NCBI GenBank assembly: GCA_026989495.1
Contig: JALSJE010000078.1
Location: forward strand, 1 to 60,648
DNA: 60,648 bases
From: Gammaproteobacteria bacterium
GTDB taxonomy: Bacteria > Pseudomonadota > Gammaproteobacteria > S144-34
Direction of reading: 5' to 3'
Both the position numbers and the translations under genes were made by a program. Each line of letters opens with the position of its first letter. The first letter of the stretch is position 1. The notes under the pieces are model-generated. The model saw only the letters and a list, made by a program, of their open reading frames with translations, was not told the DNA's origin and did no database searches. Below, piece by piece: positions 7,855 through 54,886 of this stretch.

Positions 7855-7878
7855 GTGGGGCCGGCTTCCAGCCGGCCC
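7855..7878. repeat. REP-like palindrome (GTGG type)
   Basis: GTGG followed by a perfect 9-bp stem GGGCCGGCT / AGCCGGCCC with loop TCC. The same unit recurs at 8106, 19776 and 19821, always in intergenic DNA. The tetranucleotide-plus-palindrome design resembles REP elements. Confidence 0.75.
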
Positions 7879-7887
7879 AAAGTGCCC

Positions 7888-8050
7888 GGAAACTCTGATC
7901 AATCCGCTGCGCGGATTGATCAGCGCTGAGGTGCTTCGCGGTTCATTCTGATTTTCCTTGGGTCGTCATGCACTTCCCTGTGCATGGGCCGTCCCGCGGC
8001 CGTCCCTGGCCACGGGAAAGCTCTGAAAAATCGGATTTTTCAGAGCTTCC
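7888..8050. mobile_element. 163-bp MITE-like element, copy 1
   Basis: This copy is about 97% identical to 52691-52853 (about five differences, including two single-base indels). Its first 20 bases match the reverse complement of its last 20 at 15 of 20 positions or better (copy 2: 16 of 20). It is flanked by a direct repeat GCCC at 7884-7887 and 8051-8054. Inside are an 11-bp hairpin (GATCAATCCGC / GCGGATTGATC), a small hairpin ATGCAC / GTGCAT, and a long terminal palindrome around 8019-8047. It has no coding capacity. Removing it restores a continuous spacer between two REP-like palindromes. Confidence 0.85.
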
Positions 8051-8062
8051 GCCCATCTCCCT

Positions 8063-8090
8063 GTGGGGCCGGCATCCTGCCGGCCCCCAC
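8063..8090. repeat. REP-like palindrome variant
   Basis: Stem GGGGCCGGCA / TGCCGGCCCC with loop TCC, preceded by GTG and followed by CAC. It is a variant of the GTGG-type palindrome with compensating changes in both arms (CA/TG in place of CT/AG), which suggests the stem is maintained as a structure. Confidence 0.7.
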
Positions 8091-8105: not shown

Positions 8106-8155
8106 GTGAGGCCGGCTTCCAGCCGGCCCCGGCGCGGCTGGGAAGCCGCGCCTAC
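8106..8155. repeat. Paired REP-like palindromes (BIME-like)
   Basis: A GTGAGG-type palindrome (8106-8130) directly abuts a second palindrome, GGCGCGGCT / AAGCCGCGCC, ending in CTAC (8131-8155). Read on the minus strand the second unit begins GTAGGCGCGGCTTCC, the GTAG-plus-palindrome layout of REPs mobilised by RAYT transposases. The same head-to-head pair recurs at 19821-19868. Confidence 0.72.
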
Positions 8156-19775: not shown

Positions 19776-19800
19776 GTGGGGCCGGCTTCCAGCCGGCCCA
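19776..19800. repeat. REP-like palindrome (GTGG type)
   Basis: Identical in its core to 7855-7878: GTGG, then GGGCCGGCT / AGCCGGCCC with loop TCC. Confidence 0.75.
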
Positions 19801-19820: not shown

Positions 19821-19868
19821 GTGGGGCCGGCTTCCAGCCGGCCCGGCGCGGCTGGAAGCCGCGCCTAC
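19821..19868. repeat. Paired REP-like palindromes (BIME-like)
   Basis: A GTGG-type unit (19821-19844) abuts a reverse GTAG-type unit (19845-19868, GGCGCGGCT / AAGCCGCGCC ending CTAC). This is the same head-to-head pair as at 8106-8155, which supports mobilisation or amplification of the pair as one unit. Confidence 0.75.
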
Positions 19869-51400: not shown

Positions 51401-52376
51401 GCCCGGTGGCGCCCTCGTCGCGGATCTCGCCGCCGCTGCCGGTGGCCGCGCCCGGGCGCGGCGAGATGGCCGTGGGGTGGTTGTGGGTCTCGACCTTCAT
51501 GAGGATGTGGATGGGCTCGCGCCGGGCCACATAGCGGCCCGTCGCCGGGTCCACGTACCAGCGCTCGCCTTCGAAGCCCTCGATCACGGCCGCGTTGTCG
51601 CGGTAGGCCGACAGGATCCCCTCGGGGCTCGCCCGGTGGCTCGTGCGGATCATGTCGAAGAGCGAGCGCGCCTGGTGCCGGCCGTCGATGCGCCAGGCGG
51701 CGTTGAAGATCTTGTGCCGGCAGTGCTCGGAGTTCGCCTGGGCGAACATGACGAGCTCGGCATCGGTGGGATTGCGCCCGAGGGCCTGGTAGGCGTCGAG
51801 CAGGTAGCCGATCTCGTCCGCGGAGAGGGCGAGGCCCAGCTCGCGGTTCGCCCGCTCCAGCGCCGCGCGCCCGCCGCCGATCAGGTCCACGGTGCCGAGC
51901 GGCGCAGGCCCGGCCTCGGCGAACAGCCCTTCGGCTTCCTCGAGGGCGGCGAGCACGGTCTCGGTCATGCGATCGTGCAGGAGGACGGCGGCGCGGGCGG
52001 CCTCGTCGCCGTCCACGGGCCCGCCCGTGGCGTCCATCAGGTACCAGGCGGTGCCGCGCTCGATCCGCCGCACGGACCCCAGCCCGCAGTTGCGGAGGAT
52101 GTCGGTGGCCTTGGAGGACCAGGGCGAGATGGTGCCGAGGCGAGGCACCACCAGCACCAGCCGTCCGTCGGGCGGGCACGGGGGCGGGGCCTCGTCGCCG
52201 GCGAGCAGGGCCTCGAGCCGGTCGAGCTCGTCCGGGGTGAGGGCGCGCTCCAGGGCGACGAAGTGGACGTGCTCGGCGTAGAGGTCGTGCACGCCGGGCG
52301 CGCGTGCGCGCACGCGCTCGAGGAGCTTGCGCTTGCGGAACTCGGATAGGGCCGGGCTGCCTCGGAAGTAGCGCAT
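48477..52376 (-). CDS. purL: Phosphoribosylformylglycinamidine synthase, large single-chain form
   Basis: A 1299-residue enzyme of purine synthesis that converts FGAR to FGAM with glutamine and ATP. The order is an N-terminal PurS-like domain, a linker, two AIRS-like halves ([20 protein letters not shown] marks the first) and a C-terminal glutamine amidotransferase with Cys in [10 protein letters not shown] and His-Glu in AHGEGR and PHPERVF. The length is standard for gammaproteobacteria. It is the largest gene in the window. Confidence 0.98.
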
Positions 52377-52852
52377 GGGTCGCCGCCTCCGCGCGGCGGG
52401 ACGCGCGGAGGCGGCAATGTTAGCGGAAGGGCCCGGAGGACGCCACGGAGGGCGCCTCCCGCAGGGCTAGATGTGATCTCCTAGCACGTAGTTCACAGGC
52501 TCGTTTGGCGCTGTGGCCGGAGGGGTACCGCCCCGTCTGGGACGCGGGAAGAGCGTCCCTGCCGCTCGACGGCGGCCAACGCTCGCCGCCGACGCCCAGC
52601 CGGGGCGCCACCCCCTCCGGCCGGCACACCGATTCCATGGCGGCACGCATGCCTCCGTCGCGAACAAACTGGTGAGAATCCACAGCTAGAGGAAACTCTG
52701 ATCAATCCGCTGCGCGGATTGATCAGCGCTGAGGTGCTTCGCGGTCATTCTGATTTTCCTTGAGTCGTCATGCACTTCCCTGTGCATGGGCCGTCCCGCG
52801 GCCGTCCCTGGCCGCGGGGAAGCTCTGAAAAAATCGGATTTTTCAGAGCTTC
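52377..52852. other. Intergenic region upstream of purL with a large hairpin and a mobile element
   Basis: A 476-bp gap between the chemoreceptor stop and the purL start. Positions 52515-52622 form a long imperfect inverted repeat, and 52691-52853 is copy 2 of the 163-bp element. The purL promoter should lie in 52377-52510 but no convincing box was recognised. Short frames here are Arg/Pro-rich and look non-coding. Confidence 0.7.
52515..52622. repeat. Long imperfect inverted repeat between purL and the chemoreceptor gene
   Basis: The left arm (52515-52544) begins GGCCGGAGGGGTACCGCCCC and the right arm (52593-52622) is nearly its reverse complement (ending ACCCCCTCCGGCC), with a few mismatches. 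A second, inner hairpin CGGCGG...CGCCGCCG lies between the arms. On the minus strand it would sit in the leader of the purL transcript or at the end of the preceding one. Confidence 0.55.
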
Positions 52853-52853
52853 C
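52691..52853. mobile_element. 163-bp MITE-like element, copy 2
   Basis: The same element as 7888-8050. Its first 20 bases (GGAAACTCTGATCAATCCGC) match the reverse complement of its last 20 (GGAAGCTCTGAAAAATCCGA) at 16 of 20 positions. It is flanked by TAGA at 52687-52690 and 52854-52857, a 4-bp target duplication different from that of copy 1. The right end abuts the stop codon of the chemoreceptor gene and supplies one base of it. The terminal 15-bp stem GGAAGCTCTGAAAAA could also act as a hairpin at the 3' end of that transcript. Confidence 0.88.
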
Positions 52854-54886
52854 TAGAGCTTGAAACGGCCCACCAGCCGGTCGAGCTGCTCGGACAGCTC
52901 GGCGAGCTCGTTCAGGTGCGCCACCGCCTGGCGCACGCGCTCGGCGCTCTCGGCCTCCATGGCCGAGATGGACTCCACCGTCTGCGCCATCTCGGCGGTG
53001 GCCGTCGACTGCTGGCTGGCGGCGGCGGCGATCCGGGAGACACGCTCGTTCATGGCGCCCACGCCCGCGGCCATGCGCTGGATCACCTCGGCGGTCTCGC
53101 GCACACGCTGGACCATCGTGCGCGTGGCCTCGGCCACGGTCTCCATCGCCTGCTCGAGGCGGTCGTTGGCGGCCATGTTGTCCTCGATGAGGGCGGCGAT
53201 GCGCGCGGTGGACTCCTGCGTCTTGGTGGCGAGCTCGCGCACCTCGTCGGCCACCACGGCGAAACCGCGCCCCATGTCGCCCGCGCGGGCGGCCTCGATG
53301 GCGGCGTTGAGCGCGAGCAGGTTGGTCTGGTTGGCGATCTCGTTGATGACCGCCACCATCTCCTGCATCTCGCGCGCCTTGCCGCCCGCGCGCTCGACGT
53401 CCTCGCGCAGGCTCCCCACACGCTCGCCCACCCCTTCGGCCTCGCGGCTCGCCACGGCCACGGCCTCGGTGCCGGCCGTGGCCTGCTCGCGGGCCCGCTC
53501 GGCCTCCTCGGCCGCCTCCTGGGCGAGACGCGCGATCTCCACGCTGCTCGCCGACATCTCCTCGGTGGCGGCGGCGGCGCTGCGGGCGCGGTCGGCCGCG
53601 GCGGCGACGTTGGCGGCCACCTGCTCCATCTCCCGGCTCGCGCCGGTGGCCCGCTCGAGCACCCGGCGCGCCACCCCGGCCACCTCGCCCACCATGGCAT
53701 GCAGGCTCTCCATGAGACGGTTGAAGTAGCGCGATGCCTGGCAGACCTCGTCCCGCCCCTTGGACCCCACGCGCCGCGTGAGGTCGCCGTCGCCCTCGGC
53801 GAGCTCGCGCAAGGCCTCGCGCAGCCCGAGGATGGGCCGCAGCACCTGGCTCTGCACCACCCACAGCACCAGCGTCACCACGATGAGGGCCACCGCCACC
53901 AGCGCGCCCTGCAGGCGGCCGTAGCCGTCCGCCTGGGCCAGCACGGCCTCGTTGACCGCTGCCGCGTCCTCGGCGGCCAGCCGCACCAGCGCGTCGATGC
54001 GCTCGCCGATGCGGTCGAGCAGGGGACCGATCTCGGAGCGCACCAGCCAGGCGTCGGTGCGCCAGCGCTCGCCGCCGTGGATCTTCTTGAGCTCGGCGAA
54101 GCCTTCCATGAAGCGCGCGCGCAGCGCGGCCACCTGCCCCAGGCCCTCCTCCTGGTCCAGCGTCAGCGCCTCGCCGTAGCCCCTGAGGCGCTCGAGCAGG
54201 GTCCCGACCTGGCCGTCGTAGAGCTCGACCTCCCGGACCGAGGCCGGCTCGCGGAAGGCGAGGTAGGCCCGGACCCCCCGCATGACCCCCACCCAGGCGT
54301 AGCGCAGCTCGTGCAGGTCGTTGAGGAGGGCCTTGCGCCGGTCCGTGGCCTCCTCGTCCATCTCCGACTGGATCATGTTGCCCACGACCTGGAGCAGCTC
54401 CTGGCTGACCGGGTTCAGGTTCTGGGCCGCGAAGCGCCGGCCCGGGAAGTTGTCGGGCGGGTTCTCGGCCAGCGCGACCATGCGTGCCCGGTAGGCGCGG
54501 AAGCGGCCCACGTCGGCGGCGATGGCCTCCAGCAGCTCCTCGGCCCGCGGATCGCCGAGCAGCCCCTCAATCGCCTGCAGCTCGGCGAGCCGCGCCTCAA
54601 CCCGGCTCAGGCCCTCGAGGTAGGCCGCCTTCTGGGCCGGCTCACGGGTGAGGAGGAAGAAGCCGAGGGCGGCCCGGGCCGCGTCCAGCTCGGCCTTCAG
54701 CGCCAGCGAGGCGCGCATGGCCGGCTGGGCCTCCACGACCGCGCGGTGCAGCCCCGCGCCCAGCCCGGAGACCGCCAGCCGCGAGACCGCCGCCATGGCC
54801 ACGATCACGGCCACCAGCAGCCCGACCGCACCCCAGATCTTGTGCTTGATGGTCATGCCGCCGAGGAAACCGATGGGATTGCGCAT
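52853..54886 (-). CDS. Methyl-accepting chemotaxis protein
   Basis: A 677-residue chemoreceptor. Transmembrane helices at about 18-36 and 328-348 flank a large helical periplasmic domain (about 37-327); a HAMP domain follows, then the signalling coiled coil with the hairpin tip [20 protein letters not shown] and [14 protein letters not shown]. The ligand is unknown. It ends in GRFKL with no CheR-tethering pentapeptide visible. The ATG at 54886 has GGGGGAG upstream; the frame is open further but without conserved sequence. Its TAG stop is partly made by an inserted element. Confidence 0.93.

Follow-up and report, generated by a model that had tools for sequence, protein, structure and literature searches.

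YTAR is the standard target of IS5 and of the short elements related to it. Insertion sites of IS5 have been reported as CTAA or CTAG (PMC11677980). In Pseudomonas syringae pv. phaseolicola, the MITE named MITEPsy1 is 100 bp in length, is present in six copies and inserts at CTAG or YTAA (PMC3189936). It has the ends GGAAGGTCTGAAAAAGCC and GTATCCTCTGAAAAAGCC and a 4-nt duplication, is listed as “IS5?”, was attributed to ISPsy2 and shown to transpose, and has 71%-identical relatives that were reported in P. stutzeri and in strain HdN1 (PMC3189936). Other bacterial MITEs include the Correia elements, ERIC, Chunjie and QMITE1/2 (reviewed in PMC10969869), with direct repeats of 2-3 nt in QMITE1 and 7-11 nt in QMITE2 (PMC5896051). 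We found no earlier description of the MITE family reported here in the literature that we searched.

The window, i.e., the whole stretch of 60,648 nucleotides under study, contains two copies of this element. A preliminary description had proposed two 163-bp copies with approximately five differences between them, with imperfect inverted ends of approximately 20 bp and with GCCC and TAGA as 4-bp flanking repeats, and direct reading confirmed all of these features. The copies differ at five positions (three substitutions and two single-base indels), and 16 of the first 20 bases agree with the reverse complement of the last 20. The features that define the two copies are as follows:

7884 to 7887, no strand: left target duplication of copy 1, GCCC (read directly)
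7888 to 8050, plus strand: MITE copy 1, 163 bp
7888 to 7904, plus strand: left terminal inverted repeat GGAAACTCTGATCAATC, which nearly equals the ends GGAACCTCTGATCAATT of IS5-family transposons in other gammaproteobacteria
8034 to 8050, minus strand: right terminal inverted repeat, reverse complement GGAAGCTCTGAAAAATC (read directly)
8051 to 8054, no strand: right target duplication of copy 1, GCCC (read directly)
52687 to 52690, no strand: left target duplication of copy 2, TAGA (read directly)
52691 to 52853, plus strand: MITE copy 2, 163 bp
52854 to 52857, no strand: right target duplication of copy 2, TAGA (read directly)

Copy 1 lies between genes for a phosphonate-binding protein and for a DUF815 ATPase. 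Copy 2 touches the stop codon of a minus-strand gene for a methyl-accepting chemotaxis protein, and its other neighbor is purL, also on the minus strand, with its 5′ side ending near 52376. A second, GC-rich palindromic repeat, GCCGGCTTCCAGCCGGC, flanks copy 1 (window positions 7860-7876, 8068-8084 and 8111-8127) and is also present at 19781-19797 and 19826-19842, giving five matches in the window versus 0.3 expected.

The assembly that holds the window (G000) comprises 2.54 Mb in 143 contigs, and we compared it with two other genomes of the same genus, G001 and G002 (G369 and G002 are the same genome). Using a covariance model built from 40 copies and scoring 150 candidates per genome, we counted at least 148 copies in G000, a figure that may be a lower bound, with 97 in G001 and 78 in G002. 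The family makes up approximately 1% of the G000 genome. Approximately 110 of the G000 copies were collected with their flanks, and 76 full copies entered the main statistics. In the GTDB genome collection, the core pattern matched only two contigs, one of them from G002. A near-typical copy (L092, 183 bits) is the sole copy found in the genome containing JALSGW010000039.1, which is titled an Alphaproteobacteria MAG, and represents either a mis-binned contig or a transfer. Left ends without a right end in G000 (L033, L034, L037, L039, L041, L051, L060 and L071) were judged to be truncated or decayed copies. Several contigs end in or beside a copy, and the MITE may contribute to assembly breaks. 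The starts of two contigs, G000:C77 (L042) and G000:C140 (L058), are homologous and differ by one 12-bp terminal unit near the palindrome, a difference that reflects either strain variation or duplication.

Identical 4-bp flanks are present in 36 of the 76 full copies, versus 0.94 expected when the right flanks are shuffled (maximum of five in 1000 shuffles), and in these same 76 copies there is no excess of 3- or 5-bp flank duplications and at most a slight excess at 2 bp. In a larger set, 43 of 92 copies in G000, 11 of 21 in G001 and 7 of 19 in G002 carry a 4-bp duplication (expected 1.0, 0.6 and 0.5, respectively), and the duplicated sequences are diverse across copies. About half of the copies are without an exact 4-bp duplication, which would require decay or recombination after insertion; in six or seven further copies the duplication was recovered once an extra terminal copy of 11-12 bp, GGAAACTCTGAT, was set aside. 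This extra unit lies inside the target duplication at L005, L014, L035, L062, L073 and L007, all in G000. The right ends of L080 and L059 carry an attached left-type unit, an arrangement unexplained by simple slippage.

Comparison with the sister species identified sites that are occupied in one genome and empty in another, as the preliminary description had proposed to look for. Copy 1 is absent in G002 (L170), where the same genes are present at 75-82% identity with a shorter gap, and copy 2 is absent in G001 (L163), where purL and the chemotaxis-receptor gene are both present. Neither sister species has the L217 copy, at a site where approximately 100 bp of flank can be aligned. G002 lacks the L017 copy, and G000 lacks L204, a copy of G002. 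These absences were read from synteny and flanking alignment and not base for base, since intergenic DNA diverges quickly between these species. In G001, a copy adjoins the DUF815 gene in the opposite orientation and is apparently an independent insertion. Opposite orientations near the same gene border in different species were observed for L075 (G000) and L198 (G002) and for L001 and L171, which suggests repeated insertion into permissive gaps. Some insertions are common to G001 and G002 (for example L187/L199 and L186/L201, both inferred from matching gap lengths, and L192/L206), and activity therefore spans the species split.

The 4-bp duplications and the presence/absence differences between species strongly support the earlier interpretation of this element as a MITE and not a duplicated segment. 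It is 163 bp in length and without an internal transposase, and it has terminal inverted repeats, a fixed 4-bp duplication, dispersed copies and insertion polymorphism. That a chromosomal segment was duplicated by recombination, with no transposon involved, would explain the repetition itself and nothing more, and we regard it as hardly credible: flanks shared beyond 4 bp or copies confined to syntenic positions, the signs of such a segment that had been named in advance, were looked for, and instead the flanks vary beyond 4 bp between copies, the copies are on many contigs and on both strands, and the syntenic sites without copies in sister species already contradict it. As to age, the two window copies (97% identity) are among the closest pairs of the family in a pairwise comparison of the 76 full copies, where the median identity is 86%, the best pair reaches 98.2% and no pair is identical. 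Movement was thus recent on the time scale of the genus but need not be ongoing, which corrects the earlier conclusion of recent movement from the near identity of the window copies.

The element is also highly structured, with the following features in copy 1:

7895 to 7923, plus strand: left hairpin with a 13-bp perfect stem inside the left end (fold; 96.7% of cells paired in 40 copies)
7967 to 7986, plus strand: internal stem-loop CATGCACTTCCCTGTGCATG, with a well-conserved core (fold and 40-copy comparison)
7992 to 8017, plus strand: internal stem-loop TCCCGCGGCC...GGCCACGGGA (fold and 40-copy comparison)
8018 to 8048, plus strand: right-end hairpin (AAGCTCTGAAAAATCGGATTTTTCAGAGCTT), each arm being a terminal-repeat copy, with the arms covarying across copies

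Approximately 34 bp at the right end form a near-perfect palindrome, whose inner arm adds another terminal-repeat copy. Single-strand folding is strong (z = -7.9). Over the whole structure in 40 copies, 34 cells show double-sided pair changes, versus 9.8 in shuffles and at most seven with slid pairing; most of these changes are in the right hairpin (GC to CG, and UA to CG or GC), which contains four covarying pairs. The hairpins may persist via selection on the folded form, via two alike enzyme-binding sites, or via self-correction of the palindrome. Palindromes of 26-43 bp that consist of two abutting terminal repeats and stand alone occur at L113:833-858 (G184), L042:22-64, L058:128-170 and L066:1264-1306, and the one at L113 is 26 bp in length with a TTAA duplication on both sides. 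This suggests that such a repeat pair can move alone, with L113 as a possible minimal transposable unit.

A structured RNA, or a regulatory or terminator element under selection, either domesticated from a transposon or unrelated to one, would also be expected to covary as the right hairpin does and to lie between genes, as do 48 of the 51 copies that could be classified by a simple gene finder relying on codon usage (of its three “genic” calls, that for copy 2 of the window is an artefact of flank joining at the stop codon). We consider this explanation improbable, however, as no Rfam family scores above threshold for the element, copy 1 contains no promoter or terminator pattern, the neighboring gene pairs are tandem, divergent and convergent alike, and copies lie in opposite orientations in one gap across species (L001/L171), while covariation is also expected from palindrome self-correction or from transposase sites in both arms. 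The terminal hairpins, the strong folding and the covariation, together with the one Y1/RAYT-like gene in G000, would fit a REPIN-like repeat, i.e., two inverted REP hairpins moved single-stranded by a RAYT/IS200-like Y1 enzyme. To our knowledge, however, Y1 transposition leaves no target duplications. We rejected Y1/RAYT mobilization, which we see as very improbable, because exactly 4-bp duplications are abundant and because G001 and G002 have no Y1 gene yet contain many copies, which already contradicts it; moreover, the one IS200-like Y1 gene detected in G000 (L100, at G000:C114) has no MITE copy beside it and lies within another repeat, the GC-rich GCCGGCTTCCAGCCGGC. This gene and the surrounding GCCGGCTTCCAGCCGGC repeats look like a REP/RAYT pair.

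The end motif GGAARCTCTGANNAATC is present in 23 of 369 genomes of the class, in some of them many times, versus 0 matches for a reversed control pattern, and in those genomes short elements of the same plan surround the matches. No viral contig contains the motif. A transposase-gene scan of the motif genomes identified four IS5-family transposons with the same inverted ends (L133, L134, L139 and L135); the transposase gene flanked by matching ends, which the preliminary description had suggested searching for, therefore does exist, in other gammaproteobacteria only. These transposons (NCBIfam IS5_4) have the ends GGAACCTCTGATYAAT, 4-bp duplications and a length of approximately 1.17 kb. For example, L133 is 1171 bp in length, with 17-bp perfect ends GGAACCTCTGATTAATT and the duplication ATAA, and L134 is 1169 bp in length, with the duplication TAAG; L135 is shorter and probably damaged. 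The left end in the window matches the right end of L134 at 15 of its first 16 bases. The four proteins score 232-349 bits to NF033581 (IS5_4; cut-off 140), and all contain the Pfam domain DDE_Tnp_1, with DUF772 also in the three full-length ones. Related short elements in other families likewise combine these ends with 4-bp duplications, e.g., L109, L110, L128, L126 and L129. The matching ends and the 4-bp duplications make IS5 the likely transposase type, and from these sequence features we infer an IS5-family enzyme as the mover of the MITE.

In the assemblies, we did not recover the full-length relative that had been expected to supply the transposase from elsewhere in the genome. A protein model built from the four IS5_4 transposases found all of its positive controls (G304, G083, G024 and G171) and no IS5_4-type transposase in G000, G001, G002 or G017. 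G017, which contains dozens of related ends and elements of 81-161 bp (L112, L129 and L095), is thus also a genome with no detectable enzyme of this type. DDE_Tnp_1 (PF01609) genes number one in G000 (IS1182-type, L101), one in G001 (IS5_3-type, L102) and none in G002, and L101 and L102 were rejected as mobilizers, having unrelated ends (GGGGGCTGTTGAAAAA... and GAAGCTATCTCAAAAAT...). At L101 (G000:C47), the insertion sequence appears to have split a transposase gene of the IS256 type. MITEs usually, though not necessarily, share a genome with an autonomous partner that has their ends; none was found in G000 or the other assemblies of the genus, which is compatible with either an orphaned MITE or an assembly gap.

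Target choice is the clearest departure from the known IS5 family; the near-perfect right hairpin with its covarying arms also sets the element apart from standard IS5 members. Only 1 of 69 sites in this genus is YTAR, and the insertions instead occupy a symmetric target, A..C[T..A]G..T, over approximately 14 bp (A at -3, C at 0, not C at +1, not G at +4, G at +5 and T at +8; symmetrized p down to 6e-26). Symmetry about the duplication is what would be expected from a dimeric DDE enzyme. Related elements elsewhere have duplications that are mostly TTAA or CTAG. Of the hallmarks of an IS5-derived element, we thus observe the shared ends and the 4-bp duplication but not the YTAR target. It is possible, although we think it unlikely, that the mobilizer is specific to this lineage, either a transposase that falls outside the IS5 groups described so far or a strongly diverged member of IS5, with A..C[T..A]G..T as its own target, and that the ends resemble those of IS5 elements through a common ancestry confined to the ends. 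Such an enzyme would fit a symmetric and significant target that excludes YTAR, as well as the lack of an IS5_4 homologue in the genus assemblies; however, we found no other transposase with such ends, the PF01609 matches of the genus (L101 and L102) have unrelated ends, and as many as 15 of 16 bases at the ends of the MITE agree with IS5_4 elements.

The interpretation we favor, with a probability of roughly 0.8, is that this is a non-autonomous DNA transposon that was moved by an IS5-family enzyme, or by one recognizing the same ends, and that is now probably orphaned. An IS5-family DDE transposase, or one recognizing the same ends, would have bound to GGAANCTCTGANNAAT, the terminal repeat, at each end, mobilized the 163-bp unit and inserted it at cuts staggered by 4 bp, generating the 4-bp duplications. 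The element would then have spread to approximately 148 mostly intergenic sites in G000, and to approximately 100 and 80 sites in the sister species, both before and after the species split. With the transposase gene now absent from the assemblies, the family is probably orphaned; alternatively, the driver may reside in an unassembled repeat or may visit on a mobile element. A more specific proposal, which we put forward tentatively and regard as doubtful, is that a dense MITE expansion was driven by an IS5-like transposase that has a new palindromic target rule and that was once present in the genus or persists in its unassembled DNA, and that the terminal double-repeat hairpins are functional in end recognition.

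These findings bring to light a previously undescribed MITE family of high copy number in an uncultured lineage of gammaproteobacteria, and the shared ends tie short repeats of several gammaproteobacterial families to one IS5 transposon type, providing a case of conserved ends with differing target choice. With approximately 150 copies and no detectable enzyme, the family also allows the question of how, and at what point, MITEs of bacteria persist after their transposase is lost.

Among published elements the closest is MITEPsy1, which is likewise short and non-autonomous with a 4-nt duplication, whereas the MITE in the window is 163 bp in length and present in approximately 148 copies, and has another plan, hairpin ends, non-YTAR targets and no matching transposase in its assembly. 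The IS5_4 insertion sequences (L133, L134, L139 and L135) share the terminal repeats GGAACCTCTGATYAAT and the 4-bp duplications, but are 1.1-1.2 kb in length, encode a DDE transposase of 317-325 aa, insert at ATAA-, TAAG- or YTAA-like sites and were not found in this genus. The short gammaproteobacterial elements (L109, L110, L128, L112, L129, L126 and L106) have the same ends, and several of them, 81-161 bp in length, share the order of left end, internal stem-loop and perfect right palindrome, but their internal sequence is not clearly homologous and their targets are mostly TTAA or CTAG. The Correia elements, ERIC, Chunjie and QMITE1/2 are similar in being high copy (tens to hundreds) and largely intergenic, and are set apart by their other sizes and direct repeats. 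The element of the window behaves like an IS5-mobilized MITE, and its membership in that group is qualified by the failed YTAR test and by the missing partner. In comparison with these systems, this is a MITE family with IS5-type ends that is ordinary in kind, and that is new in its target preference, its copy number and its probable orphan state.
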